A stretch of 64,000 nt of DNA from the NCBI GenBank assembly GCA_025917655.1, contig CP084612.1, positions 248,001 through 312,000 on the forward strand, written 5' to 3'. The notes under the pieces are model-generated. The model had not been told where the DNA came from, did not search any database, and worked only from the letters and a program-made list of their open reading frames with translations. The translations under genes and the position numbers were made by a program. Of the stretch, positions 35,805 to 62,420 are shown piece by piece. Source of the stretch: Chlorella sorokiniana (taxonomy: Eukaryota; Chlorophyta; Trebouxiophyceae; Chlorellales; Chlorellaceae). Each line of letters opens with the position of its first letter. The first letter of the stretch is position 1.

Positions 35805-36290
35805 TTGGGAGGAGCCACCGGCCTGCAGCGCCAGCAGCAGCGGGTTCGCCCCCACCGCGCAGCGAAGCTCCGCTGTCTCGACGCCATGCCCAGCGCTGGG
35901 CTCATTCTGTGCTCATGCCCCTGCTGGCTGTCGCGCTTCCAGGTTGCGGCTTGGCCAGGGCACAAGGGGCCGTGGCAGCAAAGGCGGGTGCAGCGGGCAG
36001 CAGGCGGGTGCGCCAGCTTGCTCAGGGACCATGATACCATGTTGGTTGTTGGTTGTTGACCTTCACTTTGACGCCGCAGCTTTCTATTGACCTCAACTTG
36101 ACGCCGCACCCTGTCAATGGCACACTTGGCCCGTGCAAGTTGCCCCTGCGGATTGCGCAAGGTATGCATTGGAAAGCGGTGGGCACCGTCCGCTTAGGGT
36201 CCGCCCTCCATCATGCGCAGCACCCAACTCAGCCGCCACACTCTGCTTGGGTGCGCATCGAGTCTGGTTTATGTTCTTTCCACGCGTAAC
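35805..36290 (+). repeat. Subfamily-A flanking repeat, copy 1
   Basis: This 5' flank of MYND copy 1 is closely similar to 38985-39480 (plus) and 44935-45395 (minus). Shared landmarks are TGGGAGGAGCCAC, CTCATGCCCCTGCTGGCTGT, GTTGTTGACCTTCA and GGAAAGCGGTGGGCACCGTC. The unit begins with sequence that in the other two places directly follows a MYND stop codon, so it looks like a 3' UTR plus promoter. Confidence 0.85.
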
Positions 36291-36307
36291 GCTCATAGAA
36301 AGTAAGA

Positions 36308-38929
36308 ATGGAGGTCCTGAAAGCCTCGTTAGAGGCCTTCTGCGACCGGAGCCAAGCTCCCCGGACTTTCAAGGAGCGCACGGTCCCCATGCTGGTTCAA
36401 CAATACCAGCAACTTGTATCGGAGCTCCGCAGAAGCACGGGCGGGTTGCCAGACCCCCTCGTTGAACGCATCGTGGTGAACCCTTGCTGCGCCTCCGTTT
36501 GTGTTTCTAGAGCGTTGATTTCAACCACGATGGCATCGTAAGCGTGTGCGCATTGCTGCCTCCCTTTCCCGACACCTCACACTGATTGTTGCCACTCGCC
36601 CCGCCCGACCCCCACTGGGCACGCTTTTACTGATGACCTGTTTGGACTTTTCAGAAGGCTGGGCACCCCAGACACAGTCTCTGATAGCTTGCTCACCGTT
36701 CCCCACTACGAGGAGCTGGTGCTGCCGGTGCTGCGGCGGGCGAGCCCCAACCAGGCCGCGGGGCCGTGCAGCTTGTCATCCAGAGCCGCCCCTGCACGTT
36801 GTCGGCTGCGCAGCGTCGGGAGGCGGTGCGGCACGCGTGCCGGCTGACTGCGGCGCATGCTGCTACCTCGGTACAGCGCAGCTGCTGCTGCGCAATGCTG
36901 CTCATACTCATCAATGACCGGCATCTGGGTGCGAACGCCGCCGCATGCGCTCCGCCTCCTACTGCTCGGTTGCCCATCGCCTGCTGTCTGCACGCACATG
37001 CCAGCGACCTGCCATGCGCGTGTATTGCCCAGCCCCCGCCCGCCATGGCACATGCGCAGGCGAGCCCCTGCTGGCCCCCGGCGCAGCGCCGCCACCTGGC
37101 GAAAGCGATGACACAGACGACGGCGCGTTGGCTGCGGCCGTAGCCGCTCTAGAGCATGGCGCCTTGGAACTCTTGCTGGAGTTCCTGGCCGGGTGGGCTG
37201 CCTGCGGCAACCTGCAGCAGCGAGACGCAGGCAGGCTGTGCCTGCCGTTAACGGCGGCACAGGCAGGATCGCCCCTGCTGCCCACCGTTGCCTTCGGGCA
37301 CACGCTAAGGCCCCCTTCCACCGCCCCCACCCCCTTCCCGGACCACAGTTCTGACCGCCCCTTCCCCTGCGCATCTGAGAAAGTGTTCAAGTGAGTGCGA
37401 CGCCACCAGCTGCTGCACGAGGGGCGGCGGCGGGCGGCATCCCCGAGCTCTTGGGCGCGCCAGGCCGCGCTCGGGGGGCGCGTCCCCTGGCCGCCGTCGT
37501 TCCCACCCCCCACCTCCGTCCTCTCCTTGCCCCTGACCCAACACACACACCATTGCAGGGCCCTGCTAGCGCTTTGCGAAGCCATGCCGGCGGCGTGCCT
37601 CAGCCAGGACAGGGGGTGGGGTGAAGATGCGGAGGCGTGTGAGCGAGTGCGTGGCTGCCAACCCCAGCCTGGCGCGCCGCTTGGTGGCTGTGATGGAGGG
37701 AGACAACGAGGTCTGTGACAGCGGAGCATGGGCATCGGCGCTGCTGTTGGTGTGGGTGGTGGGAGAGGCGCCGCTTTCCGTGAACTTGCGGGGCCGGCCT
37801 GTTGGAGCCGCCGCTTCAGTATGGCACAGCGGGGCGGCGGCGAGGCCGGCCAGCCGTGTCTGCGCTGCCCCAAAACCTGTGGCTCCATGCCTGCATGCAA
37901 ATCGAACGTCGACGAAGTGGGGGGCACCGCATGTGGCCACGGACGCTGGTCACTGCTGGCCGCCCCCTCTTGTGTGCAGGAGGGGAACATGGCCGCAGCC
38001 AACCTGGTCAACATATGCGTGTTGTTGGGCCTGAACTCCCGTTTTGCCGAGGGCCTCCCGCGCTGCGCAGCCTGCGACGGGAGGGGGCCGCGCCTGCTCT
38101 TCGCCAGCTGGCCGGCAAGCCATGGATGCAGGGCAGGTGGGCTGCGACGCTGCTGGTTGTGCAAGCAGGGGCCAGCCTGCTTGTTGAACGAAGGTTTACA
38201 GCGCCGCCGCTGCTGGCCGCGGCCGCACCCGCCTGCCGCAGGAGCATGGAAGACATGCAAGAGGCCGTGCTCTTTGCTGAGGGCGTGCTGCAGAATCTGG
38301 ACGGAGTGGCGGCGGGGCAGCGCCCCCCCGGTCAATTGCCGCTGCCTACGGGCCGGTTCCCGCTGTGCCGGACTTTCCTCGCATGCTTACGGTTGAAAGC
38401 GTCCGCACCCACCTGGCGGGGTTGAGTGTGCGGCAGCTGCGCCGCGTGCTGCAGCTGCTGGGCGTCGACAGCAGCGGCTGCCTGGAGAAAGAGGAGCTGG
38501 TGGAGAAGGTGATGCAAACGGCGGCAACGGACGGCCCTGCCGCCGCAGCTTTTGCGCTGTCCCAAACATCATTGCACGGGGGCAGGAGCCGGAAGCGAGC
38601 AACTCACAGGCGCCAGGCAGCCTGACGCAGCAGCCATCGGCTGGCGGCTCCAGGCTGCACATCGCTGCTGCAGGCGGGCAGCAAGACGCCGCAGCAGGTG
38701 CCACGCGGGCAGCCGCCGCGGCAGCCCCTCAGGCCGCGGGCGGTGGCGGCGACAGCAGCAGCCGGCCCCCGAGAGGCGCTGCGCTCGCTGCGGCGCCAGC
38801 CCAAGCGAAGTAATCAAGCTGCGGCGCTGCGCCTGCGGGCTGGTGCGCTACTGCGGCGAGCGCTGCCAGGGCGAGGACTGGGTGGGGCACAAGGCTGCTT
38901 GCAAGGAGGCGCGGCAGCGGCAGCAATAG
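36308..38929 (+). CDS. MYND array copy 1 (subfamily A)
   Basis: The product is likely a regulatory scaffold protein; function unknown. ATG 36308 starts MEVLKASLEAFCDRSQAPRT. Exon 1 ends at the GTAAGC donor at 36538. Then come HYEELVLPVLRRASPN, QLVIQSRPCTLSAAQRREAV, RVSECVAANPSLARRLVAVM (about 37640) and an ARM-like region with AANLVNICVLLGLNSRFAEG. The SAP-like helical domain is LSVRQLRRVLQLLGVDSSGC plus LEKEELVEKV (38424-38515). An Ala/Gln linker leads to the MYND finger RCARC...RCAC...YCGERC...HKAAC (38785-38905), ending EARQRQQ at stop 38927-38929. The usual acceptor of exon 2 is changed: where copy 2 has CCCCCAG, this copy has GGGCAC near 36616-36622, with a possible new TTTTCAG nearby. 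One base is missing before the MYND finger. Plausibly functional but uncertain. Confidence 0.82.
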
Positions 38930-38984
38930 GCTTGAGCGCTGTGTGGTGCCGCCGTGCCGCCCTCAGCCCATAAGCATCAGTGTC

Positions 38985-39480: not shown

Positions 39481-39505
39481 TTTTGCGTGTATTATAAAAC
39501 CAAGA

Positions 39506-42063
39506 ATGCAGGTCCTGAAAGCCTCGTTAGAGGCCTTCTGCGACCGGAGCCGAGCTCCCCTGACTTTCAAGGAGCGCACGGTCCCCATGCTGCTTCAACA
39601 ATACCATCAAATTGTAACGGAGCTCAGCAGCACCACGGGCGGATTGCCAGACCCCCTCGTTGATCGCATCATGGTGAACCCTTGCTACGCCTCCATCTGT
39701 GTTTCTGAAGCGTTGAATTCAACCGTGTTGGCATCATAAGCGTGCGTGCAATGCTGCCTCCCTTTTCCGACACCTCTCCTTGATTGTTGCCACTCGCCCC
39801 GCCCACGCCCGCCCCCAGGCTTTTATTGATGACCTGCTTGAAGGACTGCTCAAAAGGCTGGGCACCCCAGGCACAGTGTCTAGTAGCTTGCTCACCGCTC
39901 CCCACTACGAGGAGCTGGTGCTGCCGGTGCTGCGGCGAGCGAGCCCTAACCAGGGCGCCTGCCCCATGCAGCTTGTCATGTTGAGCCGACCCTGCACGCT
40001 GTCGACTGCGCAGCGTCGGGAGGCGGTGCTGCACGCGTGCCGGCTGGCTGCGGCGCACGCTGCTACCTCGGTACAGCGCAGCTGCTGCTGCACAATGCTG
40101 CTCAAACTCATCAATGACAGGCATCTGGGTGCGAACGCCGCCGAATGCCGCTATGCCACCCGCCCACTGCTGCTCGGTTGCCCATCGCCGCCCGCCTGCA
40201 CGCACATGCCGGCGGCTTGCCATGCGCGGTACGGCTGACACCCCCGCCCGCCATGGCGCAGGCGAGCCGCTGCTGGCCCCGGGCGGGGCGCCGGGCGGGG
40301 CGCCGCCACATGGCGAAAACGACGACAGGGACGACGGCGCGTTGGCTGCGGTCGTAGCCGCTATAGAGCATGGCGGCTTGGAAATCTTGCTGGAATCCCT
40401 GGCCAGGTGGGCTGCCTGTGCTGAACTGCAGCAGCAAAGCACAGGCAGGCTGTACCCGCCGTTGGCCGCGGCACAGCCGGCATCGCCCCCGCTGTCCCCA
40501 CCAGTGCCTTCGGGCACACGCTCTGAGGGCCCCCCAATCACCCACCCCTGGACCACAGCTCTGACGGCCCGTTTCCCTGCGACCCTGAAGAAGTTGTCAC
40601 GTGGGTGCAACGCCGCCAGCTGCTGCATGCGTGGCAGCGGCGGGCGGCATCCCCGAGCTCTTGGAGGCGTCGCGGCCCCCACCTCCGTCCACTCCTTGCT
40701 CCTTGACCCAACACACACACTGTCGCAGGGCCCTGGCTGCGCTTTGCACGGCCGTCCCGGCAGCGTGCCTCAGCCAGGACAGGGGGTGGTCTGACGTGAT
40801 GGAGAGGCGCGTGAGCGACTGCGTGGCTGCCAACCCCACCCTGGCGCGCCGCTTGGTGGCTGCGATGGAGGGAGACGACAAGGTCTGTGGCAGCAGAGCA
40901 TGGGCATGCGGTGCCGCTGTTGGTGTGGGTGGTGGGACAAGCGTCGTTCTTCCGTGAACTTGCGGAGGCTGCCTGTTAGGCTAGACTTGCAGCTTCAGAG
41001 GGGCAGAACGGGTCGGCGGCTAGGCCTGCGAGCAGTGGCTGCGCTGCCCCAGGTCATGCGATGGCATGCCCATGCTTGCAACTCGGACGACGACGGAGTG
41101 GAGGGGGCACCGACTGTGGCCGCGAGAGCGGGCACCGCCCACCCCCCCTCCCCGCCCTGTGTGCAGGAGGGGCACATGGTCGCGGCCAGTCTGGTCAACA
41201 TGTGCGTGCTGGCGGCCATAGCCTCCCGCTTTGCTGAGGGCCTCCCCGCGCTGCGCAGCCTGCGGCTGGAGGGGGCCGCGCCTGCCCTTCGCCAGCTGGC
41301 CGGCAAGCCCAGGATGCAGGGCACGTGGGCGGCGGCGCGGCTGGCTGTGCATGGCAAGCAGGGGCCAAGTCTGCTTGCTGAAGCGAAGGCTCACCGCGTC
41401 GCCGCCCATGGCCGCGGCCACACCCGCCTGCCGCAGGGGCATGGAGGGCATGCGACAGGCGGTGCTCTACGCCCAGAATGTGCTGCAGAATCTTGACGAT
41501 GCGGCTGCGGGGCGGCTGCCGCCGCTCCCTCCGTCCCTCGCTGCCTACGGGCCGGCCGCCGGCGGCGGGCAGCGCGCTGGCACGCTTCCAAGGAAGGGCT
41601 TCCGGCGCCACCTGGCGGGGTTGAGCGTGCGGGAGCTGCGCCGCGTGCTGCAGCTGCTGGGCGTCGACAGCAGCGGCTGCCTGGAGAAGGAGGAGCTGGT
41701 GGAGAAGGTGATGCAGACACCGGGCGCCATCGGCGCTGCCGCAGCAGTTTGCTCGCTGCCCGATGCATGCCTGCACGACGGTGCTGCAGACGAGCGACAA
41801 GGCGCCGCGGCAGCCCCTCAGGCCGCGGGCAGCGGCGACAGCAGCAGCCAGCCCCCGAGAGGCGCTGCGCTCGCTGCGGCGCCAGGCCAAGCGAAGCAAT
41901 CAAGCTGCGGCGCTGCGCCTGCGGGCTGGTGCGCTACTGCGGCGAGCGCTGCCAGGGCGAGGACTGGGCGGGGCACAAGGCTGCGTGCAAGGAGGCGCGC
42001 GGCGGCGGCGGCAGGGGCAGGAGGCAGGGGGTGCAGCCTGAGGGCCAGCTACTGCACAGCTGA
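39506..42063 (+). CDS. MYND array copy 2 (subfamily A)
   Basis: ATG 39506 starts MQVLKASLEAFCDRSRAPLT. The domain order is as in copy 1: HYEELVLPVLRRASPNQGAC, QLVMLSRPCTLSTAQRREAV, RVSDCVAANPTLARRLVAAM, ASLVNMCVLAAIASRFAEGL with LPALRSLRLEGAAPALRQLA (41240-41310), GMEGMRQAVLYAQNVLQNLD, the SAP-like LSVRELRRVLQLLGVDSSGC plus LEKEELVEKVMQT (41620-41720), and the MYND finger with all eight ligands (41858-41990). It has a short extra tail ending QPEGQLLHS at stop 42061-42063, absent from copy 1. Two problems: the exon 1 donor is ATAAGC where copies 1 and 3 have GTAAGC (39736), and the linker-MYND junction lacks one C. If the donor change is real, splicing must use another site, perhaps the GT at 39742. 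Confidence 0.8.
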
Positions 42064-42343: not shown

Positions 42344-44921
42344 TTAGTGCTGCTGCCGCCGTGCCTGCCTGCACGCCGCCTTGTGCCCCGCCCAGTCCTC
42401 GCCCTGGCAGCGCTCGCCGCAGTAGCGCACCAGCCCGCAGGGGCAGCGCTGCAGCTTGATTGCTTCGCTTGGGCTGACGTCGCAGCGAGCGCAGCGCCTC
42501 TCAGGGGACTGGCTGCTGCTGTCACCGCTGCCGCCAACGGCATGAGGGGCTGCCACGGCGGCTGCGCGCGTGGCACCCGCTGCGGCGCCTTGCTGCCCGC
42601 CTGCGGCACCGTCCTGCAGCCTGGAGTTGCCAGCCGATGGCTGCTGCGTCACGCTGCCTGGCGCCTGTGGGTTGCTTGCTCCTGGCTCCGGCCCCGCGGG
42701 CAGCGATGCTTCAGTCAAACCAAAAACTGCGACGGCAGCGTTGCCGGAGTCCGGTGTCTGCATCACCTTCTCCACCAGCTCCTCCTTCTCCAGGCAGCCG
42801 CTGCTGTCGACGCCCAGCTGCTGCAGCACCCAGCGCAGCTGCCGCACACTGAACCCCGCCAGGTGGGTGCGGAAGCTCTCCCCTGCAGCCTGCCATCAGA
42901 CTGCGGCACGGCGGGAACTGGCCCCCAGGCAGCGGTGCGCGACGAGGGGAGCGGCGGTAGCCACCCCGCCACCGCTTCGTCCAGATTCTGCAGCACGCTC
43001 TCGGCATAGAGCACCGCCTGTCGCAAGCTCTCCCTGCCCCTGCGGCAGGCGTGTGCGACGCCGCCAGCGGCGGCGGCCCTGTGAGCTTTGCTTCAGCAAG
43101 CAGCCTGCCCTCTGCTTGCCGAGCACGCAGCAGCCGCGTCGCAGCCCACCTGCGGAACATCCCGGGCTTGCCGGCCAGCTGGCGAAGGGCAGGCACGGCC
43201 CCCGCCCGCCGCAGGCTGCGCAGCGCGGGAGGCCCTCGGCAAAGCGGGAGGCCACGGCCACCAACACGCACATGCTGACCAGGTCGCCCGCGATTAAGTG
43301 CCCCTCCTGCACACAGGGGGAGGAGGGGGCGGTGACCGTTTCTGCGGCCACATGCGGTGCCCCCTCCACTCCGCTGCCGTCCGCTTCGCAAGAGGGCATG
43401 GAGTGACAGGGCTTAGGGCAGCGCAGATACGGCTCGCAGGCCTGGCCGGCGCCCCTTTCTGCCCCTCTGAGGCTGCAAGTCTAGCCTAACAGGCCGGCTC
43501 TGCAAGTCTATGGAAGAGCGACGCTTTCACCACCCACACCAACAGCGGCACCGCATGCCCATGCTGTGCTGCCACAAACCTCGTCATCCCCCTCCATCGC
43601 AGCCACAAAGTGGCGCACCAGGGTGGGGCTGGCAGCCAAGCACTCGCTCACGCGCCTCCGCATCGTTTGACCCCACCCGTCGCCCATGCTGAGGCACGCC
43701 GCCGGCATGGCTTCGCAAAGCACTGCCAGGGCCCTGCATCGGTGCGTGTGTTAGGTCGGGGGAGTACAGGGCGGAGGGGGGGAGGGGGGGACGACAGCAG
43801 CAAGGGGGCACCACTGGTGTTGCACACACCTGAATACCCTTTCAGGGTCACAGAGAGATGTCTTGTCGGAGCGGGCGGAAGCGGGGTCATAGCTGTGGTT
43901 GGGGGCGCGCGCGCGCGGCCTTAGCGTGTACCCGAAGGCAACGGTGGACAGGGGGCGATGCCGGGCTGTGCCGTCGCCCACCGCGGGCACAGCCTGCCTG
44001 TGCCTCGCTGCTGCAGTTCGGCGCAGACCGCCCACCTGGCCAGAAAATCCAGAAAGATTTCCAAGCCGCCATGCTCTAAAGCGGCTACGGCCGCAGCCAA
44101 CGCGCTGTCGTCTGTGTCGTCGTTTTCGCCAGGTGGCGGCGCCACGCCCGGCATCACGCCCGGGGCCAGCAGCGGCTCGCCTGCGCATGTGCCATGGCGG
44201 GGGGGGGGTTGGCCACAACGCGCATGGCAGGTCGCTGGGATGTGCGTGCAGAAAGCAGGCCATGGGCAACCGAGCGGCAAGAAGCGGCAGAGCGGCAGGC
44301 GGCAGGGTTCCCACCCAGGGCCCTGTCACTGATGAGTATGCGCAGCGTTGCACAGCAACCGCGGCGATCTATCGAGGTAGCAGCGTGCGCCGCGGCCAGC
44401 CGGCACACGTGCCGCACCGCCTCCCGACGCTGCGCAGCCGACAGTGTGCAGGGGCGGCTCAGCATGACAAGCTGCGCAGGGCAGGCTGCCTGGGTGGGGC
44501 TCGCCCGCCGCAGCACCGGCAGCACCACCTCCTCGTAGTGGGGAGCGGTGAGCAAGCTACTAGAGGGTGTGCCTGGGGTGCCCAGCTTTTTGAGCAGTCC
44601 TTTAAACAGGTCATCACTGAAAGCCTGCTGGGGGAGCGGCGCGTGGCGGCGGGGACGGTGTGAGGGAGGCAGCAGTGTGCGCACGCTTACGATGCCATCA
44701 CAGTTGAAATCAAAGCTCCAGAAGCACCGAATGGAGGCGCAGCAAGGGTTCACCAGGATGCGTACAACGAGGGGGTCTGGCAACCCGCCCGAGGTTCTGC
44801 GGAGCTCCGTTACAATTTGCTGGTATTGTTGAAGCAGCATGGGGACCGTGCGCTCCTTGAAAGTCCGGGGAGCTTGGCTCCGGTCGCAGAAGGCCTCTAA
44901 CGAGGCTTTCAGGACCTCCAT
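42344..44921 (-). CDS. MYND array copy 3 (subfamily A, inverted)
   Basis: ATG 44921 on the minus strand opens MEVLKASLEAFCDRSQAPRT. Exon 1 (44921-44691) ends WSFDFNCDGI at a GTAAGC donor; DFNCDGIVS looks like an EF-hand loop but may be coincidental. Exon 2 (from about 44624) reads AFSDDLFKGLLKKLGTPGTP and HYEEVVLPVLRRASPTQAAC, then QLVMLSRPCTLSAAQRREAV. Later pieces are RVSECLAASPTLVRHFVAAM (about 43660), GDLVSMCVLVAVASRFAEGL and LQNLDEAVAGWLPPL. The SAP-like QLRWVLQQLGVDSSGCLEKE is at about 42840-42780. This copy has an intact open frame from the SAP-like domain through the linker (PEPGASNPQAPGSVTQQPS) and MYND finger to stop 42344, so it is the best reference for the C-terminal half of subfamily A. 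Confidence 0.88.
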
Positions 44922-45441: not shown

Positions 45442-48394
45442 CTATTGCTGCCGCCGCCGCGCCTCCCTGCAAGCCGCCTTGTGCCCCGCCCAGTCCTCGC
45501 CCTGGCAGCGCTCGCCGCAGTAGCGCACCAGCCCGCAGGGGCACCGCCGCAGCTGCACGCCCTCGCTTGGGCTGGCGCCGCAGCGAGCGCAGCGCCTCTC
45601 GGGGGCTGCCTGCTGCTGTCGCCGACGCCGCCCGCGGCTTGAGTGGCTGCCATGGCGGCTGCGGGCGTGTCACCTGCTGCGGCGCCTTGCTGCCTTCCTG
45701 CGGCACCGTCCTGCAGCCTGGAGTCGCCAGCAGCCGATGGCTGCTGCGTCACGCTGCCTGGCGCCTGTGGGTTGCTCGCTCCTGGCTCCGGACCCTCGGG
45801 CAGCAATGTTTGGGGCAAGGCGAAACCTGCAGCGGCAGGGCCGTCCGCTGCCGCCGGCTGCCTCACCCTCTCCACCGGCTCCTCTTTCTCCAGGCAGCCG
45901 CTGCTGTCGACGCCCAGCTGCTGAAGCACCTGGCGCAGCTGCCGCACGCTCGAGCTCGCATCCAGACGATCGCGCATGTGGGACGGATTGCCGGTGCCAG
46001 CGTTTGCTGTCGCAGAAAGAGGTGTGGCTGTCTCCTCCCCACTGCTGGAGGCCGCAGCTGTGAGGCCCCCTGTATGATTTCGAGCGCCATTTGTATTGCA
46101 GTCACGATTTCTTGCAGCCTTACATACCGCCTGCGGGGGCACACACACGCGGACAAGGCCACTCGCAGGCAGCGCTGCGGCCGAGGCGACGCATGCAGCA
46201 GGCAGGCTCATCGCCCTGTTGCGGGCACCCTTCAACAGAACCGTGGCGCACGCGCGGTTGAGCCCCTCCCTCAGCCGCAGCAGCCAGTTGTCGCCGGGCA
46301 CGAGCGGCGCAGCGCAGCGGCTCGGCAGCAGAGGCCCCCACCTTGCATGCAGCCAGGGCTGGGCAGCGGCGCGTTTCAGGCGAGGCAGCACGCCCGCCCT
46401 GTACAACTGAATCAGCGCCGTAATGCTGGTTGTGCGGCCGCCCGATTCCAGCGCGGCCCTGCCCCAGAGCAGGGCGGGGTTGGCATGGATGGCCATGAAG
46501 GCGGGTTCAGCCACGACCGCCAGCAGGGTCAGCACCTCCAGCAGCTCGTCCTGCACAGGCCGCCAGAGAGATGCTTGTTGTGGGAACGAGCAAGGGGAAG
46601 GCTTCTTTGCCTTGAACCAGGGACGGGGGCGAGGGGGAAGAGGCCCGCACGCGCGCATGCGTGCCTCCGCAAGCGCCAAGCAAAGGGCACAAGTGCCCCC
46701 AAACGCAAACAGGAGGCGGTGGCCGTTGTGTGCGCATGGCTGACAAACACAGACACAGAGGGCTCCCCAGTCTCGTGTGCCATGCTGCATCCCCACAGAC
46801 GCCCCCCCCCCAAGTCCCCCGCTCACCTCGCCTTCAGACTCCATCCAGGCTGCTAACGCGCGGGCGAGGGCAGGGGTTGATGCGACGCAGGCGTTCAGAC
46901 GGCGCATGCTCTCGGTGCCTCCCGCCCCGGTTTCGATTTCCATGCTGTCCTTACACAGCTCGACCAGCAGACTGCAGACAGACATAGCGCAGAGCCCACA
47001 CGCTGTGGCAGAGGATGGCGTGCAGCAGGCGCCGGAGAGCCAAGCTGCACAAGCAAGATCAGCGAGGGCCGGCAAGAGCAGCAGCAGGTGGCGGGGGCGG
47101 GGTGGGGTTGGGGGCCAGGGTGAGGGCATGCAGCGGCGCCCCCATCACCCTTTCGCGATGTCAACGATGCGACTCTGCGCCTCATCATCACGACGAGCCT
47201 CGCAGCTGCTTGCGGCAAGTCAGGGGCAGGCAGGCGTGAGCAAAGCGGGGGCAGGGGGCAGCACGTGAACGCACGGGGACCAGCATGTGGGATGCAGTGC
47301 TGCCGCACGTCGCTGCAGCAGCCCACACGCTGGTCCCCGTGTCCCCGCCACCCCATTTCATGAGATCAGCCGAGGCCGTTTGGCAAACTAAGAGGTTAAC
47401 GCGCCAGGCTGGCAGAGCAAGGAGCGCAGCTCACCCGGCCAGATAGGCCGCCACAGACTCAAAAGCGCCGCAGCGCACCGCCTCCGCGCGCGACACCAAA
47501 ACCTCCCGGGGTGGCCACAATCCCGGCAGGCAGCGGCACAAGGTCTGGGGGAGGCGAAGGGACACGAGGGGCGGGCAGGCGTTTGGGTCGGGGGCAGCGA
47601 AGGAGGAGGGCAACAGCGCTTCAGACCGGCGCATCCGTCAGCGCATGCGATCGAGTTGCACTGACAGGGAGTGGGGCAGTAGTTGCAGTACAGGCCGTAC
47701 AGCCAGACAGAGGGCCCACGCACCCGAATACATCAAATCGTTCGTCACCAAGAAAAGAGTGTACAGGCAGGAGGCCTGCTCAGCAGAACCCGCCGCTGCA
47801 TCGGCAGCAAGGCGGCACACGCGCTGCACTACCTCCCGCAGCCGCTCTGGCGAGAGGGTGCAGGGGCGGCTGTTGTTGATGAGTTCCAGCGTCGCGCTCG
47901 CCAGCTGGCTGGGCGGGGCCAGCCGCAGCAGCGGCAGCACCAGCCGGTCATGGTGCACCGCCACCAGGTGCTGCAGGTGGCCATGATGGGAGCTCCCCCG
48001 TATTTTGCTGATGAGCCTGTGGTAGGCAGACAAGAAGCCCTGCGCAGGGGCCTGGCCAGAACGGGGTCAGCTTGGCTGGCGGCGACGCACTGGCGGCAGG
48101 CGCCCACCCCCCAACAGCCTCCTCGCCAAACGAACGGCGGCCGCGGGGTGTCATTCCGGGGCCTGGGAAGCACACACTGCACCGGCTGCTGCGAGCGCCA
48201 AGGGTTTGCGGGCTCTTCCGGCGCACCGACAGTGTCTCCGCTATGCGGTCGGCTGACAGCCGATCCAGTTCTGCGACTCCCGCCTCGAGTTCCAGATATT
48301 TCGTGAGAACAACTGACACCATTCCCTCCCTCAGAGCGCTGGGAGCCCTGCACTCGTCGCACGCCGTCAGCAAAGAGGCCCGCAGCTGCTCCAT
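45442..48394 (-). CDS. MYND array copy 4 (subfamily B)
   Basis: ATG 48394 gives MEQLRASLLTACDECRAPSA, then TKYLELEAGVAELDRLSADR. Exon 2 reads FLSAYHRLISKIRGSSHHGH and DRLVLPLLRLAPPSQLASAT, INNSRPCTLSPERLREVVQR, clearly homologous to subfamily A. A small exon AAYLAG lies near 47450. ESMRRLNACVASTPALARAL (about 46910-46850) and an ARM-like exon (ELLEVLTLLAVVAEPAFMAI, about 46555-46490; ALIQLYRAGVLPRLKRAAAQ; PWLHARWGPLLPSR) follow, then the SAP-like QLRQVLQQLGVDSSGCLEKE at about 45940-45890. The MYND finger (45610-45470) has all ligands and ends EARRRQQ at stop 45442-45444, without the tail seen in copy 7. One C is missing at the linker-MYND boundary. The first 500 bases are nearly identical to copy 8. 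Confidence 0.83.
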
Positions 48395-51700: not shown

Positions 51701-52001
51701 GCAATGGCGGCAGCCCCTCCATGGGCCTCCCGGTTAGAACGAACGGCGGCCGCGGGTATCATTCCGGGGCCTAAGCAGCACATACTGCACCCACTGCTGC
51801 GAGCGCCAAGGGTTTGCAGGCTCTTCCGCGCACCGACAGTGTCTCCGCTAGGCGGTCGGCTGACAGCCGATCCAGTTCTGCGACTCCCGCCTCGAGTTCC
51901 AGATATTTCGTGAGAACAATTGACACCATTCCCTCCCTCACAGCGCTGGGAGCCCTGCACTCGTCGCACGCCCTCAGCAAAGAGGCCCGCAGTTGCTCCA
52001 T
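48714..52001 (-). CDS. MYND array copy 5 (subfamily B)
   Basis: ATG 52001 gives MEQLRASLLRACDECRAPSA. The order is as in copy 4: FLSAYHGLIGKLSGTCLLQH with YERLVLPLLQHWPPSLTNGV and ISRPCTLSPERLREVVQHVC (about 51600-51420), AAYLAG (about 51000), ESARRLNACVAATPALARAF (about 50490), VLFEALTLLTLVAAPAIVAV (about 49985-49925), the SAP-like LSVRELRLLLQLLGIDSSGC plus LEKEELVEKVEEA (about 49355-49250), and the MYND finger (48965-48840) with all eight ligands (its last loop is WPRHKAAC). The tail runs VQPEGQLLHSWAGKDG and SLMKCFF to stop 48714-48716. One C is missing in the CCCC run before the MYND finger. The intron near 50.1-50.23 kb holds an AT-rich insertion absent from sister copies. Confidence 0.82.
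50105..50230. repeat. AT-rich insertion in a copy 5 intron
   Basis: About 120 bp of low-GC sequence (for example GACGTTTAATATGTATACG) interrupts the intron where copies 4, 6, 7 and 8 pass directly from the G-run to the GCGACGCACC landmark. No open reading frame, clear terminal inverted repeat or target duplication could be seen. Confidence 0.65.
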
Positions 52002-52369: not shown

Positions 52370-55318
52370 TCAGCTGTGCAGTAGATGCCTGCTGTCAGGC
52401 TGCACCCCCTCCTCCTGCCCCTGCCGCCGCCGTACCTCCCTGCACGCAGCCTTGTGCCCCGCCCAGTCCTCGCCCTGGCAGCGCTCGCCGCAGTAGCGCA
52501 CCAGCCGGCAGGCACAAGGGCGCAGCTTGATCGCCTCGCCTGGGCTGGCGCCGCAGCGAGCGCAGCGCCTCTCAGGGGCTGGCTGCTGCTGTCGCCGCTA
52601 TAGTGGCTGCCGGGCGCAGCCGCGAGCACGGCGGCAGGCTCAACGCCGCCCTGCCGAAAAGCCTGGCACCCGGCGAGGCCGGCTTGCGGCGCTCGCTGCT
52701 GCGACGTGCTGCCGCCCGCGCCGGCAGCCGGCAGCGGCGGGGCAGAAACCGTGCTGCCGCTGCTCCCCGGCTGCTCCATCCCTTGTTGCTGCTGCTGCTG
52801 CTGCTGGGAGGTGCACTGCACTTGTAGGGTGTGCGTCAGAAACGCAGCCGCCCGCACATCCTTCCTCCCTGCCTCCAACACCTTCTCCACCAGCTCCTCT
52901 TTCTCCAGACAGCCGCTGCTGTCGACGCCCAGGAGCTGCAGCACCCAGCGCAGATGCCGCACGCTCAAGCTCGCAATCGCATCGCGCCCGCAGGCCTGAC
53001 CGGCGCCGACGCCTGCCGTCGCAGAGAGAGGTGCGGTCTGCTCCCCGCTGCTGGAGGTCGCAGGGGAGAAGCGCTCCTGGATCGTTTTGAGCACTCCTTG
53101 TACCGTAGCCACGGCTGCCTGCAGCTTCACGTACCGACTGCGGTGGGCATGCACAAGCGGGCAGGGACAATCAGCAACGCATGCAGCAGGCAGGCTCATT
53201 GCCCTGTTGCGCACGCCATCAAACACAACTGTGGCGCAGGCGTGGTTGCGCCCCTCACTCAGCCGCAGCAGCCAGTTGCGGGCGCAAGCGGCCCCCACCT
53301 CGCGCGCAGCCAGGGCTGGGCGGCGACGCGGCTCAGGCGTGGCAGCACGCCCGCCCTGTGGAGCTGAATCATCGCCGCAATGCTGGTTGCGCGGCCGCCC
53401 GATTCCAGTGCGGCCCGGCCCCAGAGCAGGGCGGGGTCGGCTTGGGTGGCCACACAGGCGGGTTCAGCCACCAGCGCCAGCAGGGTCAGCGCCTCCCGCA
53501 GCTCATCCTGCATGGGCGCACAAAGGAGATGTTTTTTCTGTGGGATGAGCAGGGGAAAGGCTCCTTTGCCTTGAACCAGGGACGGGGGGGGGGGGTGGGG
53601 GGACGGGGCTGCGACGCACCGCGAGCGCCAAGGAGAGGGCTCAAGTGCCCCAAAAGGGTAGGCGACGGTGCTTTGTGTGCGCATGGCTGACAAGCACAGA
53701 CACAGGGGGCCCTCGCGTCTTGTCGCATACCGTGCCGTGTCCCCACAGCCGCTCGACACCTTCCCCCCCCCTCCTCCTCCCCCCGCCCACCTCGTCTTCA
53801 GACTCCAGCCAGGCCGCAAACGCACGGGCAAGGGCAGGGGTGGCGCCGACGCAGGCGTTCAGGCGGCGCGCGCTCTCAGAGACTACCATACTGGTTCTGG
53901 GTTCCATGTTGTCCAAACACAGCTGGAGGAGCAGACTGCAGACAACCAAGAGCAGCGGGGGCAGGCGCAGCAGCAGGTGGCGGGGGCTGAGCGGGGACCA
54001 GGGCGAGGGCATGTGGCGGCGCGCCCACCACCTTTTGCGATTTCGTTGAAGCGGCTGTGCTCCTCCTCTTCAAGACCATCCTCGCAGCTGCTCGGGGCCG
54101 GGCGGGGCAGGGCAGGCATGAGCAAAGTAGGGGCAGGGGGCTGCACCAAGTAGCGGGTTTGAGGCGTGGGATGCACAGCGTTGCTGCAGTGGCTGCAGCA
54201 GCCCACGCGCTGGCTTCTATGCCCCCGCCCCCTTTCAGCCGAGGCTGCGTGGCACACACAGAAAGGTGTGCACCACAGCGCGTCAGGCTGTCAAAGCCAG
54301 CGGCGCAGCTCACCCAGCCTGATAGGCTGCCACAGACTCAAGCGCCGCAGCGCACCGCCTCCGTGCGCGCAAGACCGAAACCCCTTGAAGAGGACACGGC
54401 CCCGGCAGGCAGCGGCCAAGAGTCTGGGGGCAAGGCGGAGGGGGCGAGGCGGGCTGGGCTGTCGACAGCTGGCGAGGCATGGCAATCTGGCGGGCCTGGG
54501 GCGGCAGCAGAGGAGCTCAACAGCGCTGCAGACCGCCGAATTTGCGATGCAGCCATCCGCGCTTACGATGGTGTTACGCTGACAGGGAGAGCGGCAGTGG
54601 TTGCTGAACAGCCGTTGCAGCCAGGCAGAGGGCAGACGCACCCTGAATCAGCACATTTTTCATGAAGATGTCAAGCGCGTACAGCCAGGTGGCCTGCTCA
54701 GCAGAACCCGCCGCTGAGTCGGCAGCCAGGTGGCACACGCGCTGCACCACCTCCCGCAGCCGCTCTGGCGAGAGGGTGCAGGGGCGGCTGATGGCGATCA
54801 GCTCCAGCACGCCGTTCGTCAGGCTGGGCGGCCCCCGCTGCAGCAGCGGCAGCACCAGTCGCTCATAGTGCACAGCCACCAAATGCTGCAGGTAGCCATT
54901 ATGGTATGCCCCCGGCAGTTTGATGATGAGCCCGCGGTAGGCCGACAAGAAACCCTTCACAGGGGCCGTACCGGAATGGGGTAGGCCTCACAGGCGGCGA
55001 CGCATCGGCGGCATCGGCGGCTGCCCCCAACCCCCAATCAGCCTCCCTCGCAAAACGAACGGCGGCCGCGGGGTATCATTCCGGGGCCTAAGCAGCACAC
55101 ACTGCACCCACTGCTGCGAGCGCCAAGGGTTTGCAGGCTCTTCCGCGCACCGAAAGTGTCTCCGCTGTGCTGCCGGCTGACAGCCGATCCAGTTGTGTAA
55201 CTCCCTTCTCGAGTTCCAGATATTTCGTGAGAACAGCTGACACCAGTCCCTCCCTCACAGCGATGGGAGCCCTGCACTCGTCGCACGCCCTCAGCAAAGA
55301 GGCCCGCAGCTGCTCCAT
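52370..55318 (-). CDS. MYND array copy 6 (subfamily B)
   Basis: ATG 55318 gives MEQLRASLLRACDECRAPIA. The order is as in copy 4: FLSAYRGLIIKLPGAYHNGY with YERLVLPLLQRGPPSLTNGV (about 54950-54800), ESARRLNACVGATPALARAF (about 53880), ELREALTLLALVAEPACVAT (about 53510-53450), MIQLHRAGVLPRLSRVAAQP, LQAAVATVQGVLKTIQERF, the SAP-like LSVRHLRWVLQLLGVDSSGC plus LEKEELVEKVLEA (about 52965-52880), a Gln-rich linker (QQQQQQQ), and the MYND finger (52570-52440) with all ligands. It stops after SRHLLHS at 52370-52372, shorter than copies 5 and 7. One base is missing in the CCCC run at the linker-MYND boundary (CAGCCCCTGAGAGG). The exon after 54.3 kb is less clear. Confidence 0.82.
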
Positions 55319-55479: not shown

Positions 55480-55640
55480 GACCCTTGCATGAGTGGACCA
55501 GCCTGCATGCGCAGCATCCTGGATGCATGCTGTCAGCGCTGCAGCCGGCAGGAATGTGTCAGGCCCGTTGCAGAGGGCGCCAGCTAGCGCATCCACCGCT
55601 CCTTGATGCTTCCCTTGAATTGGTCCAATGCCCTCACAAC
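55480..55640 (-). repeat. Subfamily-B intergenic unit 3
   Basis: Same unit as at 48560. Here its right-hand part also codes the C-terminal tail of copy 7 (stop 55584). Confidence 0.85.
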
Positions 55641-58600
55641 AGACATTTCATCAAAGAAACCAACACTGATGCCATCCTTGCCCGCCAAGCTGTGCAGTAG
55701 CTGCCCTTCAGGCTGCACCCCCTCCTCCTGCCTCTGCCGCCGCCGTGCCTCCCTGCACGCAGCCTTGTGCCCCGCCCAGTCCTCGCCCTGGCAGCGCTCG
55801 CCGCAGTAGCGCACCAGCCGGCAGGCACAAGGGCGCAGCTTGATCGCCTCGCCTGGGCTGGCGCCGCAGCGAGCGCAGCGCCTCTCAGAGGGCCGGCTGC
55901 TGCTGTCGCCGCTTTTGTGGCTGCTGGGGGCCGCCGCAAGCGCGGCGGCAGGCTCAACGACGCCCTGCCCAGAAGGTTGGCAGCCAGCGAGGCCGGCTGG
56001 CGGCGATCGCTGCTGTGACGTGCTGCCGCCCGCGCCGGCCACCGGCGGCGGCGGGTTAGAAACCGTGCTGCCGCCCGCGCCGGCCACCAGCGGCGGCGGG
56101 GCAGAAACCGTGCTGCCGCTGCTCCCGGCTGCTCCATCTCTTGCTGGCGCTGCTGCTGCTCCTGGGAGGTGCTCTGCGCTTGCAGGGCGTGTATTATAAG
56201 CGCCGGCGCCCGCACATCCTTCCTCCCAGCCTCCGCCACCTTCTCCACCAGCTCCTCCTTCTCCAGGCAGCCGCTGCTGTCGACGTCCAGCTGCTGCAGC
56301 AGCAAGCGCGGCTGCCGCACGCTCAAGCTCGCAACCGGATCGCGCCTGCGGGCCGCACTGCCGCCGGCGCCAGCTTTTGCCTTCTCAGAGGGAGGCGTGA
56401 TCGTTTGCTCCCCGCTGTCTGCGGCCGCAGCTGCGAAGCGCTCCTCGATCGTTTTGAGCACCCCTTGTACCGCATCCAAGTATGCCCGCAGCTTTACGTC
56501 CAGCCTGCGGGGGGCGCACAAGCGGGCAAGGACACTGGCAGGCAGCGCTGCGGCCGAGGAGGCGCACGCAGCAGGCTCATTGCCCTGCTTCGCACGCCGT
56601 TTAAAATTACCATGGCACATGCGCGGTTGCGCCCCTTACTCAGACGCAACAGCCAGTTGCGGGCGCAAGCGGCCCCCACCTCGCACGCAGCCAGGGCTGG
56701 GCGGCAACGCGGGTCAGGCGTGGCAGCACGCCCACCCTGTACAGCTGAATCATCGCTGGCACGCCGCTAGCGTCCCTGCTCCACAGCCGGTCAAGGTCGC
56801 CGCCGATGGCGACAATGGCGGAGCGGCCACAACTGCCAGCAGGTTAAACACATCAGACAGCTGACGCTGCATGGGCGCACAAAGGAGATGCTTGTTGTGG
56901 AAACGAGCAGGGGGAAGGCATTTCTGTTGAACTGGGCTCATCAGATTCAGCGGGGGAGCGGGGGCGGGGCCGGGGGCGCGGCGCGGGGGGGCGCGCGACG
57001 CACCGCTAGCACTAAGGAAAGGGCACAAATGCCCCCAAATGGGAAGCGACAGCGCTATGTATGTGCATGGCTGACAAACAAAGACGCAGAGGCCTCTCCC
57101 GTCTCGTCGCACGAGGTGCTGCATTGCCACAGCCACCACCCCTGCTCACCTCCGCCTCAGAGTCCAGCCAGGCTGCAAACGCGCGGGCCAGGGCAGGGGT
57201 TGCGGCGACGCAGGCGTTCAGGCGGCGCGCGCTCTCAGTGCCTCCAAGAGGTTTATCTTTGTTGTCCTCGCACAGAACCAGCAGCAGGCTGCAAACGGAC
57301 AAAGCGCAGGGCCCACACGTGGTGGCTGAGGGTGGAGCGCAGCAGGCGCCAGAGAGCGGGGCTGCACAAGCAAGAGCAGCGAGGGCAGGCGCAGCAGCAG
57401 GTGGCGGGGGCAGAGTGGGGACCAGGGCAAGGGCATGATGCGGCGCCCCATCACCTGTGTGCGCTTTCAAAGAAGGACCTGTGATCCTCATCTTCAAAAC
57501 AAGCCTCGCAGCTGCGCGGGGCAGGGCAGGAACAGGCAGGCGTGAGCAAAATGATGACAAGGAGCTGCACTAAGCAGAGCGGGTTTGGGGCTTGGGATGC
57601 AGAGTTGCTGCACGCGGCTGCAGCATCCAACGCATTGGCGTCTATGTCCCCACCCCGCCCCCTCTCAGCCGAGGCTCTGCGGCACACACAGAAAGGTGTG
57701 CACCACAGCGCGTCAGGCTGTCAAAGCCAGGGCCGCAGCTCACTCAGCAACAGCGGCTGCCACAGACTCCAAAGCGCCGCAGCGCACCGCCTCCGCGCGC
57801 GCAACGTCATAAGCTCCCGGGGTGGCCAGGCATCCGGCGGGGAGCGGCAAGCAGTCTGCGAGGCAAGGCGGAGGGCGGCGAGCAGGAGCCGAGCTGTCGA
57901 CAGCTGGCGAGGCGCAGCGGGCAGGCGGGTCAGGGGCGGCGACAGGAGAGCCCAACAGCACTGCAGATCGGTCCATCCCCGCGATGCAGTCATCAGCGCG
58001 TGCGATTTGCACTGACAGGGAGAGGGGCAATTGTTGCGGTACAGGCCGTGCAGCCAGGCAGAGGGCCGCCGCACCCGGATACATCAAATCGTTCGTCAAC
58101 ACGGCAAGCATGGCAAAATGGGCGACCTGCTCAGCAAGCCCCGCCGCGGAGTCGGCAGCGCGGCGACACGCGTGCTGCACCACCTCCCGCAGCCGCTCTG
58201 GCGAGAGAGTGCAGGGGCGGCTGATGGTGATGAGGTCTAGCACGTCGATCGTCAGGCTGGGCGGCCCCCGCTGCAGCAGCGGCAGCACCAGCTGCTCATA
58301 GTGCACCGCCACCAGGTGCTGCAGCAGCAATGTCCCGGACAGTTTCCCGATGAGCTCGCGGTAGGCCAACAAGAAGTCCTGCACAGGGCACTAGTGCCAC
58401 TAGAATGATTACTGATGTACTGGTATTCTCTGGGTTGACCCGGCCGCACAGGCGGCGACGCAACGACGGCAGCCCCTCCATGGGCCTCCCGCTCCAAACA
58501 AGTGGCGGGGCAGCGTTCCCGAGCTTGGGCAGCACACATTGCACCGGGTGCTGCGAGCGCCAAGGGTTCGCGGCTCGGCGCGCACCGACAGTGTCTCCGC

Positions 58601-58753
58601 TGTGCTGCCGGCTGACAGCCGGTCCAGTTCTGCAACACCCTTCTCGAGTTCCAAATATTTCGAAAGAACAGCTGACACCAGTCCCTCCCTCACAGCGCTG
58701 GGAGCCCTGCACTCGTCGCACGCCCTCAGCAAAGAGGCACGCAGCTGCTCCAT
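55584..58753 (-). CDS. MYND array copy 7 (subfamily B, intact C-terminus)
   Basis: ATG 58753 gives MEQLRASLLRACDECRAPSA. Exon 2 is FLLAYRELIGKLSGTLLLQH and YEQLVLPLLQRGPPSLTIDV, ISRPCTLSPERLREVVQHAC (about 58370-58170). ESARRLNACVAATPALARAF lies near 57235-57170, the ARM-like exon near 56880-56580, and the SAP-like LSVRQPRLLLQQLDVDSSGC plus LEKEELVEKVAEA near 56320-56230; the P in RQPR could weaken helix 1. The linker contains a duplicated 15-codon block (about 56015-56105). The linker, MYND finger (about 55890-55765) and tail are in one open frame: PSERRCARC, then EEGVQPEGQLLHSLAGKDGI, and the end ALDQFKGSIKERWMR at stop 55584. It is the reference for the C-terminal half of subfamily B. Confidence 0.87.
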
Positions 58754-59121: not shown

Positions 59122-62063
59122 TCAGCTGTGCAGTAGATGCCTGCCCTCAGGCTGCACCCCCTCCTCCTGCCCCTGCCGCCGCCGTGCCTCCCTGCACGCA
59201 GCCTTGTGCCCCGCCCAGTCCTCGCCCTGGCAGCGCTCGCCGCAGTAGCGCACCAGCCGGCAGGCACAAGGGCGCAGCTTGATCGCCTCGCCTGGGCTGG
59301 CGCCGCAGCGAGCGCAGCGCCTCTCAGAGGGCCGGCTGCTGCTGTCGCCGCTATAGTGGCTGCCGGGCGCCGCTGCAAGCACAGCCGCAGGCTCAACGCC
59401 GCCCTGCCCAGCAGCCTGGCAGCCAGCGAGGTCGGCTGGCGGCGCTCGCTGCTGCGATGTGCTGCCCCCGGCGTCACCCACTGGCGGCGGCGGGGCAGAA
59501 CCGGCGCCGCCGCTGCTCCCCGGTTGCTGCCTCCCTTCCTGCCGCCGCTGCTGCTGCTGCTGGGAGGTGAGTTGCCCTGCAAGGGCGTCTGTCAGAAGCG
59601 CCGGCGCCCGCACGTCGTTCTTGTGTGCCTCCACCACCTTCTCCACCAGCTCTTCCTTCTCCAGGCAGCCGCTGCTGTCGACGCCCAGCTGCTGCAGCAC
59701 CCAGCGCAGCTGCCGCACGCTCAAGCTTGCAATCAGATCGCGCACGCGGGTTGCAATGCCACCGGCACCTTCCGTCGCGGCTGTCTGCTCCCTTCTGCTG
59801 GCAGGAGCAGCGGTGAGGCCCTCCTCGATCGTTTCGAGCACCTCAGCCACGGCACCCACGCCTGCCTGCAGGTTTGCGTACCGCCTGGGGGGCACACACA
59901 CGCGGGCAAAGACACTCAGGCAGCGTTGCGACCGAGGCGACGCATGCAGCAGGCAGGCCCATTGCCCTGTTGCGCACGCCATTCAACAACACCAAGGCAA
60001 AGGCGCGGTTGAGCCCCTCCTTCAGCCGCAGCAGCCAGTTGTCGCCGGGCGTGAGCGGCGAAGCGCTGGGGCGCGGCAGCAGAGGCCCCCACCGTGTGTG
60101 CAGCCAGGGCTGGGCGGCGGCGCGTTTCAGGCGTGGCAGCACGCCCGCCCTGTACAGCTGAAACATCGCTGCAACGCTGTTCGTATCGCTGCTCGAGAGC
60201 CGGTCGTGGTCGCTGCCAATGGCGACGATGGCGCGAGCAGCCACCAGCGTCAGCAGGGTCAGCACGTCATATAGCTCTCCCTGCATGGGCGCACAAAGGA
60301 GGAGCATGTTGTTGTGGGAACGAGCAGGGGGAGGCTTCTTTGCTAGGGCTGGGGAGGTCGGTGGAAATAAAGTCGGCGATGCACTGCGAATGAAAGCGCA
60401 CACATGCCCCCAAAGGGCAGGCGGCTGCACTTTGTGTATGGCGCATGGCTGACAAGCACAGACAAAGTGGCCCCTCGCGTCTTGTTGTATGCCGTTCTGC
60501 GTCCCCACAGCCGTTCGACCCCGCCCCCCCCGCGCCCCCACACACACACACACCTTATCCTCTGGCTCCAGCCAGGCTGCAAACGCGCGGGCGGGGGGGG
60601 GTGGCACCGAGGCAGGCGTTCAGGCGGCGCGCGCTCTCAGTGCTTCCCATAATGACTCCGGGTTCCATGTTGTCCAAACACAGCTGGGACAGCAGCCTGC
60701 AGACAGAAGATGCGCAGAGCCCACACGCAGTGGCCGAGGGTGGAGTGCAGCAAGCGCCTGAGATCAAAATTGCAACCAAGAGCAGAGAGGTCAAACAGTG
60801 GGGGCCAGTTGAGGGCATGTGGCGGCGCCCTCATCACCCTATCGCGAGTTTATCATGCTTCTCGCATTCGTGACGAGCCTCGCAGCTGTTCGTAAGGGCA
60901 GGGCAGGGCCAGACAGGCGTGAGCAAAGTGGGGATGGGGACAGCATGGAACGGCGTGGGGATGCAGTGTTGCCGCACGTCGCTGCAGCAGTTTACACGCT
61001 GGTCCCTGTGCCCCCGCCACCATTCAAGAGATCAGCGGAGGCCGTTTGGAAAGCTAAGACGCGCCAGGCTGGCAGAGCAAGGAGCGCAGCTCACCTGGCC
61101 AGATAGGCCGCGACCAACTCAAAAGCGCCGCAGCGCACCGCCCGCGCGCGACGCCGAAAGCTCCCGGGGTGGCCACGCATCCGGCGGGGAGCGGCACGAG
61201 GTCTGGGGGAGGCGAAGGGACACGAGGGGCGGGGCAGGCTGGCGGGGGAGGGGCAGTGGTGGGGGCGGCCAACAGCGCAGCAGATCGGTGCATCCACGGT
61301 GCAGACATCAGCGCGTGTGACTGTGCTGCACTGACAGGGAGTGGGGCAATAGTAGCGGTGCAGCCTGTCCAACCAGGCAGAGGGACAACGCACCCGGATA
61401 CGCCACATCGGTCGAGAAGAACCGAAGAGAGGACAGGCAGGAGGCCTGCTCAGCAGATCCCGCCGCTGCATCGGCAGCACGGCGGCACACGCGCTGCACC
61501 ACCTCCCGCAGCTGCTCCGGCGAGAGGGTGCAGGGGCGGCTGTTGTTGATGAGTTCCAGCGTCGCGCTCGCCAGCTGGCTGGGCGGGGCCAGCCGCAGCA
61601 GCGGCAGCACCAGCCGCTCATAGTGCACCGCCACCAGGTGCTGCAGGTAGCCATGATGGGAGCTCCCCGTATTTTGCTGATGAGCCTGTGGTAGGCAGAC
61701 AAGAAGCCCTGCGCAGGGGCCTGGCCAGAACGGGGTCAGCTTGGCTGGCGGCGACGCACTGGCGGCAGGCGCCCACCCCCAACAGCCTCCCTCGCCAAAC
61801 GAACGGCGGCCGCGGGGTGTCATTCCGGGGCCTGGGAAGCACACACTGCACCGGCTGCTGCGAGCGCCAAGGGTTTGCGGGCTCTTCCGGCGCACCGACA
61901 GTGTCTCCGCTATGCGGTCGGCTGACAGCCGATCCAGTTCTGCGACTCCCGCCTCGAGTTCCAGATATTTCGTGAGAACAACTGACACCATTCCCTCCCT
62001 CACAGCGCTGGGAGCCCTGCACTCGTCGCACGCCGTCAGCAAAGAGGCCCGCAGCTGCTCCAT
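59122..62063 (-). CDS. MYND array copy 8 (subfamily B)
   Basis: ATG 62063 gives MEQLRASLLTACDECRAPSA. The first 500 bases match copy 4 almost base for base, but exon 2 lacks one C (AGCTCCCC near 61665, where copy 4 has AGCTCCCCC), which breaks KIRGSSHHGY in this copy only. Later pieces are CTLSPEQLREVVQRVCRRAA, ESARRLNACLGATP (about 60650), ELYDVLTLLTLVAARAIVAI with MFQLYRAGVLPRLKRAAAQP (about 60285-60110), and one long open exon (59982-59122) carrying LQAGVGAVAEVLETIEEGL, the SAP-like LSVRQLRWVLQQLGVDSSGC plus LEKEELVEKVVEA, a Gln/Arg linker, and the full MYND finger. It ends QPEGRHLLHS at stop 59122-59124, without the ALDQFKGS tail of copy 7. Confidence 0.86.
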
Positions 62064-62149
62064 TGTCAGACAGTAAGTCGCGAGCCACGATACACGCGAG
62101 CAGAGGCAAGCAATCACGATTAAAGACGATACTGCTGTGCCCCCTCGCG

Positions 62150-62420
62150 CCTGCTGGGCTCCCCCTGGCGGCGTCATTTCCTTGCAGCATGTCGATGCAA
62201 GGGCTGTCCCCCTCTCACTGCTATGACCCTTGCATGTGGAACAGCCTGCATGCATAGCATCCTAGATGCATGTGTCAGCGCTGCAGCCCGCAAGAATGCG
62301 TTGGGCCAGTTGCAGAGGGCGCCCGCCAGCGCATCCGCCGCTCCTTGATGCTTCCCTTGAACTGTTCCAATAGCCTTAGAACAATACAATCCATGAGAGA
62401 CGCCCCCTCTGATCCATCCT
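62150..62420 (-). pseudogene. Remnant of a ninth B copy (C-terminal tail only)
   Basis: Upstream of copy 8 the B intergenic unit is present again (GCAGCCCGCAAGAATGCG, CGCATCCGCCGCTCC). It is followed by minus-strand coding remains DGSEGASLMDCI and LEQFKGSIKERRMR, matching the copy 7 tail DQFKGSIKERWMR. Homology stops abruptly near 62420; the MYND finger and everything upstream of it are missing. This marks one end of the array. Confidence 0.7.

Follow-up and report, generated by a model that had tools for sequence, protein, structure and literature searches.

The window analysed here, a 64,000-nucleotide stretch of Chlorella sorokiniana DNA (C10:248001-312000; GC content ~66%) taken from a 15-contig genome of 38,804,885 bases, contains at ~36.3-62.1 kb eight copies (c1 to c8, two on the + and six on the - strand) of one intron-containing gene ending in a MYND zinc finger, arranged as an array with a repeat unit of ~3.1-3.6 kb. 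The copies follow a common exon plan, possess N-terminal halves of two types joined to a nearly common SAP-like and MYND tail, include one chimera (c4), and in this assembly are interrupted by frame breaks. Each gene would thus encode a fast-evolving, probably alpha-helical N-terminal half (the head) of one of two old types, A or B, followed by a putative SAP-like helix-loop-helix of the MANF/RNF34 type, a variable Ala/Gln linker and the MYND finger. The array has the look of a gene cluster under rapid turnover and not of eight stable, functional genes, and the explanation given a somewhat better than even chance is that of a young tandem cluster of a lineage-specific family, evolving by birth-and-death with exchange, which encodes adaptors with variable heads and most copies of which are decaying.

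Organisation and exon plan of the array

Gene models were constructed with a splice- and frameshift-aware script that aligned reference proteins, made by hand, to the individual copies; as the references were taken from array copies, some of the agreement between the models is built in, whereas that of the splice sites is not. The introns between exons 3 and 4 (phase 2), 4 and 5 (phase 0), and 5 and 6 (phase 2, donor GTGGG) were located at the same places in all eight copies, and that between exons 1 and 2 (phase 0) at the same residue in seven, c1 being the exception; the edges of exon 3 were uncertain. The N-terminal halves defined two groups, A comprising c1 (36308..38926, +), c2 (39506..42060, +) and c3 (42347..44921, -), and B comprising c4 (45445..48394), c5 (48717..52001), c6 (52373..55318), c7 (55587..58753) and c8 (59125..62063), all on the - strand. 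Over the first 900 nt, identity was 82-83% in A, 68-89% in B and 39-43% between A and B, the A and B proteins being 30-33% identical. Upstream of the group B genes, at 62140-62400 and at the corresponding position before c5-c8, the sequence was 84-87% alike between copies, and the promoter regions are therefore part of the repeated unit.

Searches of the same genome with the B and A N-termini returned 31 and 28 matches respectively, all on C10 and with one outside the window (C10:334776-334955). A ninth, diverged single member of the family lies ~22 kb past the window, at about positions 2186-5330 of C10:332000-339000, with recognisable exons 1 and 2, a SAP-like part, a linker with GGPSSGAQP repeats and a MYND finger; no further relatives were found in the same genome, in viral contigs or in prokaryote genomes. 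The claim of a preliminary description, made from the letters of this DNA, that the locus is an array of paralogues of one gene was confirmed by the eight MYND copies and their common exon plan, and the paralogue array is specific to this locus.

Probable exchange between copies, and selection

Nei-Gojobori synonymous divergence (dS) between groups A and B was 1.1-3.0 from exon 1 through to the part of exon 6 preceding the SAP-like domain, 0.09 in the SAP-like domain and 0.20 in the MYND finger. Codon preference was allowed for by comparing the codons at same-residue positions with block codon usage. A-B codon agreement in the six upstream blocks was at the level of chance (observed 0.35-0.51, expected 0.35-0.47; exon 1, 0.474 versus 0.465; pre-SAP exon 6, 0.352 versus 0.352), and exceeded expectation in both the SAP-like domain (0.951 versus 0.762) and the MYND finger (0.896 versus 0.657). 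More direct indications of exchange come from individual copies. Copy c4 is a chimera: its head is of group B (89% identical to c8), its linker is of group A, with 83% identity to c1 and c3, and so is its 3' flank (86% to c1). The MYND fingers of c6, c7 and c8 are identical in DNA over 123 nt, and the 3' flanks of c6 and c8 are 99% identical.

Because of this codon agreement, the identical fingers of c6, c7 and c8 and the chimeric c4, the tails of the array are not independent, and conservation of the zinc ligands in eight copies cannot serve, as had been proposed, as eight-fold evidence of selection. Conservation of the tail is thus largely a product of exchange or of codon-level constraint. 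Certain results tell against a simple reading in terms of exchange. Codon agreement among unrelated MYND fingers of the genome was itself 0.76-0.81, and 0.80 for the ninth gene, set against 0.905 for A-B (25 of the 67 MYND matches in the genome were taken into the codon and spacing comparisons). Furthermore, the linker between the SAP-like domain and the MYND finger is 36-43% identical between its two types, so that exchange would need short tracts, or else constraint at the DNA level contributes. Strong codon preference (third-position GC content 0.94 and 0.89) together with nucleotide-level constraint could indeed share in the agreement recorded for both domains.

Codon-bootstrap estimates of omega (the ratio of non-synonymous to synonymous change, dN/dS) were 0.42 for the MYND finger (95% confidence interval 0.23-0.83), 1.06 for the SAP-like domain (0.44-3.59), 0.74 for the group B N-terminus (0.59-0.92), indicative of weak purifying selection, and 0.85 for the group A N-terminus (0.64-1.17). 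Codon fits undertaken with IQ-TREE had a better likelihood when omega was free than with values entered as fixed (-2876.4 versus -2884.3 for the group B N-terminus and -357.5 versus -367.4 for the group B MYND finger); because the fixed parameter in these fits is uncertain, claims of selection rest on the bootstrap. On that basis the MYND finger is under purifying selection, and is the only part for which this is clear, the SAP-like domain is indistinguishable from neutral, and the head evolves fast; an expected dN/dS below 1 was consequently found in the MYND finger and not in the SAP-like part.

The same estimates bear on the possibility that the whole array is without function, a repeat that arose when an old gene was amplified as a unit of DNA and that is now neutral. 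The values for the SAP-like domain and the group A N-terminus are compatible with such a history, as is the finding that, should the tail be a single exon, every copy is broken (see below); nevertheless, an omega of 1 is excluded by the codon bootstrap for both the MYND finger and the group B N-terminus, and the proposal is considered improbable.

Frame breaks

Ten net frame breaks upstream of the SAP-like domain were detected in seven of the eight copies: in exons 2, 4 and 5 of c1, exon 5 of c3, exon 6 of c4 before the SAP-like domain, exon 4 of c5, exon 3 of c6, exon 5 of c7, and exons 2 and 4 of c8. The exon 5 breaks of c1 and c3 are identical, and c2 has none. This count omits the breaks in the pre-SAP part of exon 6 of c1, c2 and c3 (the two of c2 cancel), because the reference is poor there, together with a doubtful exon 1/2 junction in c1. 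The distance from the SAP-like domain to the MYND finger is in frame in c3, in c8, where SAP-like domain, linker and finger form one open frame, and in the ninth gene, and out of frame in c1, c2 (where the MYND frame reaches a stop at 42061), c4, c5, c6 and c7. If the tail is one exon, then every copy is interrupted somewhere in this assembly. The description of the copies as eight complete genes was accordingly not sustained, seven of them having at least one net frame-breaking indel before the SAP-like domain, and only two of the eight retaining SAP-like domain and MYND finger in one frame.

The modelled coding sequence of the array that contains the ten breaks, counted up to and with the SAP-like domain and MYND finger, amounts to ~10.8 kb. 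The genes for HSP70 and CCT, used as a yardstick, gave one frameshift-like junction in 112 exon matches (19,404 nt), although this yardstick, based on split profile matches, is less sensitive than the alignment method applied to the array. At one HSP70 gene (C3:1270819-1271083), two neighbouring matches in different frames have a 5-base overlap, the result of either a frameshift or an assembly error.

An alternative account, that several or most copies are intact and that the breaks are consensus errors of the assembly, mainly at G/C runs, is thought unlikely, yet it constitutes a live rival for some of the breaks, because G/C runs, which are prone to consensus errors, contain or adjoin about half of those in the array and also the break inside the SAP-like part of the single-copy ninth gene. 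The breaks concerned are those of c4, c5 and c8 (both), together with a spot before the MYND finger shared by five copies; the break of the diverged ninth gene lies at a G-run in an otherwise well-kept SAP-like domain, and an omega below 1 for the MYND finger would also be expected of intact genes. The breaks in exon 4 of c1, exon 3 of c6 and exon 5 of c7, on the other hand, fit simple G/C-run changes poorly, that in exon 5 is common to c1 and c3, and the frequency of breaks in the array stands against the single junction of the HSP70 and CCT genes.

The frame relationship within the tail depends in turn on how the linker is read. The script offered an intron in the linker, and were this the last intron of the gene, with the Ala/Gln stretch spliced out in most copies, the relative frames of SAP-like domain and MYND finger would be irrelevant and c2 at least would be intact. 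Splice-aware alignment placed a GT-AG intron of this kind in c1, c2 and c6, with the acceptor CAGCAG directly before the MYND finger. Its donors, however, vary in place and sequence from copy to copy, unlike those of the other introns, and one open frame running from the SAP-like domain through the linker to the MYND finger is present in three separate lineages, namely c3, c8 and the ninth gene. A spliced linker is consequently rated at rather poor odds; because donor positions vary between copies, the reading favoured is that the linker is coding and has been broken in six of them.

The MYND finger

All eight fingers exceeded the Pfam cut-off in a profile search of the genome, at 38780-38902 (c1, +), 41866-41988 (c2, +), 42371-42493 (c3, -), 45469-45591 (c4, -), 48834-48956 (c5, -), 52442-52564 (c6, -), 55755-55877 (c7, -) and 59194-59316 (c8, -), with zf-MYND (PF01753) scores of 35.1 (hand-spliced c8 protein) and 37.7 against a cut-off of 22.7 bits. 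The eight zinc ligands reported earlier were confirmed by count, eight Cys/His residues being present in each of the eight fingers, but the second pair is CxC, as in c8, and not CxxC. All nine family members share this spacing, whereas all 16 of the other fingers compared have CxxC, and the CxC second zinc-ligand pair is a mark of the array family.

The fingers of ETO/CBFA2T1, DEAF-1 and SMYD3 were among the matches to PDB sequences, CBFA2T1/ETO being the closest (E value 0.0027). Unlike these proteins, the array genes have CxC at the second pair, and the NHR, SAND and SET domains were not found. Short proline-containing peptides are the ligands of the ETO and DEAF-1 fingers.

The SAP-like domain

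In the hand-spliced c8 protein (567 aa), the SAP-like part scored 24.6 bits with RNF34L-like_3rd (PF22968; cut-off 27) and 19.3 with ARMET_C (PF10208; cut-off 23.5); the score with SAP (PF02037) was 11.6 against a cut-off of 23.9. A genome search with PF22968 gave eight places at E <= 1, these being the eight copies, and the domain of c8 (59629..59733, -; 28.9 bits) was the only one above the cut-off. AlphaFold2 modelled residues 51-80 of the c8 tail as a helix, an extended loop and a helix with a mean predicted local distance difference test (pLDDT) score of 92-93, and the rest of the tail, MYND finger included, poorly (mean pLDDT 56). Foldseek comparison of this part placed the SAP domains of CARP2 and PIAS1 first (probabilities 0.97 and 0.96; E 0.48) and the C-domains of CDNF and MANF lower (E 4.1), with no match at E <= 0.001.

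The family that contains RNF34 and CARP2 (RFFL; solved in 1y02) thus provides both the best Pfam match (24.6-28.9 bits) and the highest-ranked Foldseek match (E 0.48, with 33% identity across 46 columns), but neither the C-terminal RING nor the N-terminal FYVE-like finger of the RNF34/CARP E3 ligases was found in the c8 protein (Pfam, E <= 1), and in the array the SAP-like part is followed by a MYND finger. The helix-loop-helix also superposes on that of CDNF (9i5y, 2kve) over 41 columns at 1.2 A, with a template-modelling (TM) score of 0.86 by target length, a likeness that at E 4.1 is supportive only. A GC-x-EK core is common to the array domain and MANF/CDNF; the saposin-like ARMET N-domain of these secreted/ER proteins was not found in the c8 protein by Pfam. 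The earlier grouping of the SAP-like part with RNF34/CARP2 and the MANF/CDNF C-domains is consequently supported by both Pfam profiles and predicted fold. Its motif was retained in part: the GC-EK core is kept in all eight copies, and the exact string LLGVDSSGCLEKEELVEKV occurs in three (c1, c2 and c6).

In the ninth gene the equivalent sequence reads VRELK/ALQQLGIDCSSCREKEELV, the G-run break lying between the two parts, and its core carries CSSC, a CxxC. MANF likewise carries a CxxC. A prokaryote origin of the SAP-like part was tried and rejected, none of 263 pattern stretches being confirmed in what was a weak test with a query of 37 residues; a viral origin was similarly rejected, none of the 16 pattern stretches found with the N-terminal profile in viral contigs being confirmed.

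The N-terminal head

The preliminary description placed ARM-like blocks between a helical module and the SAP-like domain. ARM repeats were rejected: no ARM family matched the c8 protein in Pfam at E <= 1, let alone above the cut-off, and a PDB sequence search with the N-terminal profile was empty at E <= 5. Exon 2 was predicted to be all-helical with a mean pLDDT of 61, and the predicted fold gave no fold match at E <= 0.001, results which count against taking the fold of the head as established. A solved relative of any kind for the N-terminus was likewise rejected by the Pfam, PDB sequence and fold searches. Of the proposed domain order, the helical-looking, SAP-like and MYND parts accordingly survive and the ARM-like blocks do not.

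Relatives in the genome and in published work

The genome is rich in MYND genes (67 matches), with clusters at C9:393-430 kb, C9:2151-2160 kb, C12:816-824 kb and C13:407-417 kb. Another tandem array, with five MYND fingers and an unrelated N-terminus, is located at C4:2741306-2755993, two of its copies, judged by eye, keeping a long upstream frame and two switching frame. Like the array described here, it has tandem copies, a C-terminal MYND finger and long helical-looking upstream frames; unlike it, it has a CxxC finger, no PF22968 match and an N-terminus without detectable kinship.

Cattelin et al. (BMC Genomics 2026; PMC13126933) recorded MYND in 169 of 3300 alpha-solenoid candidates, in Chlorophyta only, and in Table 5 of that paper, according to its available part, 6 of the 11 species-specific families are annotated with MYND. 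In the available text of Craig et al. 2021 (PMC8226300), E. debaryana has MYND orthogroups among its most expanded ones, and MYND numbers are described as variable in diatoms in that of PMC7779022. The array resembles the Chlorophyta alpha-solenoid/MYND proteins in having a helical N-terminus plus MYND, and these proteins also form lineage-specific families, in Edaphochlamys, Tetrabaena and Gonium; it differs in its SAP-like domain, which goes unmentioned in the available text of PMC13126933, the comparison being one of descriptions in which the helical fold of the array is weakly predicted. Neither a SAP-like/MYND pair nor a named family was found in the literature searched, a scope that took in few subscription papers. 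The view of the family as undescribed accordingly stands insofar as the libraries searched hold no named family of this kind, whereas the broader combination of alpha-solenoid and MYND in Chlorophyta has already been published, as far as the available text of PMC13126933 goes. What is new relative to those expansions is the SAP-like insert.

The available text of PMC13126933 proposes an organelle role for the Chlorophyta alpha-solenoid proteins with MYND, a role which for the array would imply trans-acting alpha-solenoid RNA-binding regulators of chloroplast or mitochondrial transcripts. However, no PPR, OPR or RAP match was obtained in Pfam at E <= 1 with the c8 protein, OPR perhaps lying outside Pfam, and the conserved N-terminus is acidic from residue 2 (E2, D13 and E14 in group B), unlike a transit peptide; a role of this type is accordingly held to be quite unlikely.

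Neighbouring features of the window

A remnant gene had been reported beside the array. The DNA in question (35802..36268, +) is indeed duplicated, at 78% identity to 38990-39429 and 44955-45384, but its similarity is confined to the flank 3' of c1 and c4 and it has no coding part, so that it represents a duplicated flank of c1/c4 type rather than a gene remnant. Flanking frames at window positions 30790-31626 (+), 8505-9203 (+) and 2-949 (-) matched the PSMD12/CSN4 N-terminal domain above the cut-off, and MutS domain III and a ferritin-like domain below it, respectively. No Rfam match above the gathering score and no tRNA were found in the window.

Discussion

An adaptor family is favoured because the tail looks like a common docking module, the head is variable, and the MYND fingers of ETO and DEAF-1 bind peptides. 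The constant tail would dock on a common partner, its MYND finger on a short proline-containing peptide, and the variable helical head would select another partner. Most copies may be decaying or newly dead, the MYND finger probably being their best-kept part.

By analogy with CDNF and MANF, whose SAP-like domain binds the ATPase domain of BiP (Hsp70) according to the titles of the matched structures, the partner of the tail could be Hsp70. The array might then represent a system of clade-specific client adaptors, in which an exchange-kept tail of SAP-like domain and CxC-MYND finger is combined with diverging heads so as to supply the alga with a shifting repertoire of recognition adaptors, a proposal advanced as highly speculative.

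Green algae possess a large number of functionally untested MYND proteins whose N-termini are helical, and the CxC finger and the MANF/RNF34-type insert supply two concrete handles for testing one such family. Under the favoured explanation of a young cluster evolving by birth-and-death with exchange, the locus shows a mode of family change in which the tail stays common to the copies, the head splits into types, and copies die and recombine. It also carries a warning that zinc ligands kept unchanged throughout a tandem array are not necessarily a sign that each copy is selected independently.

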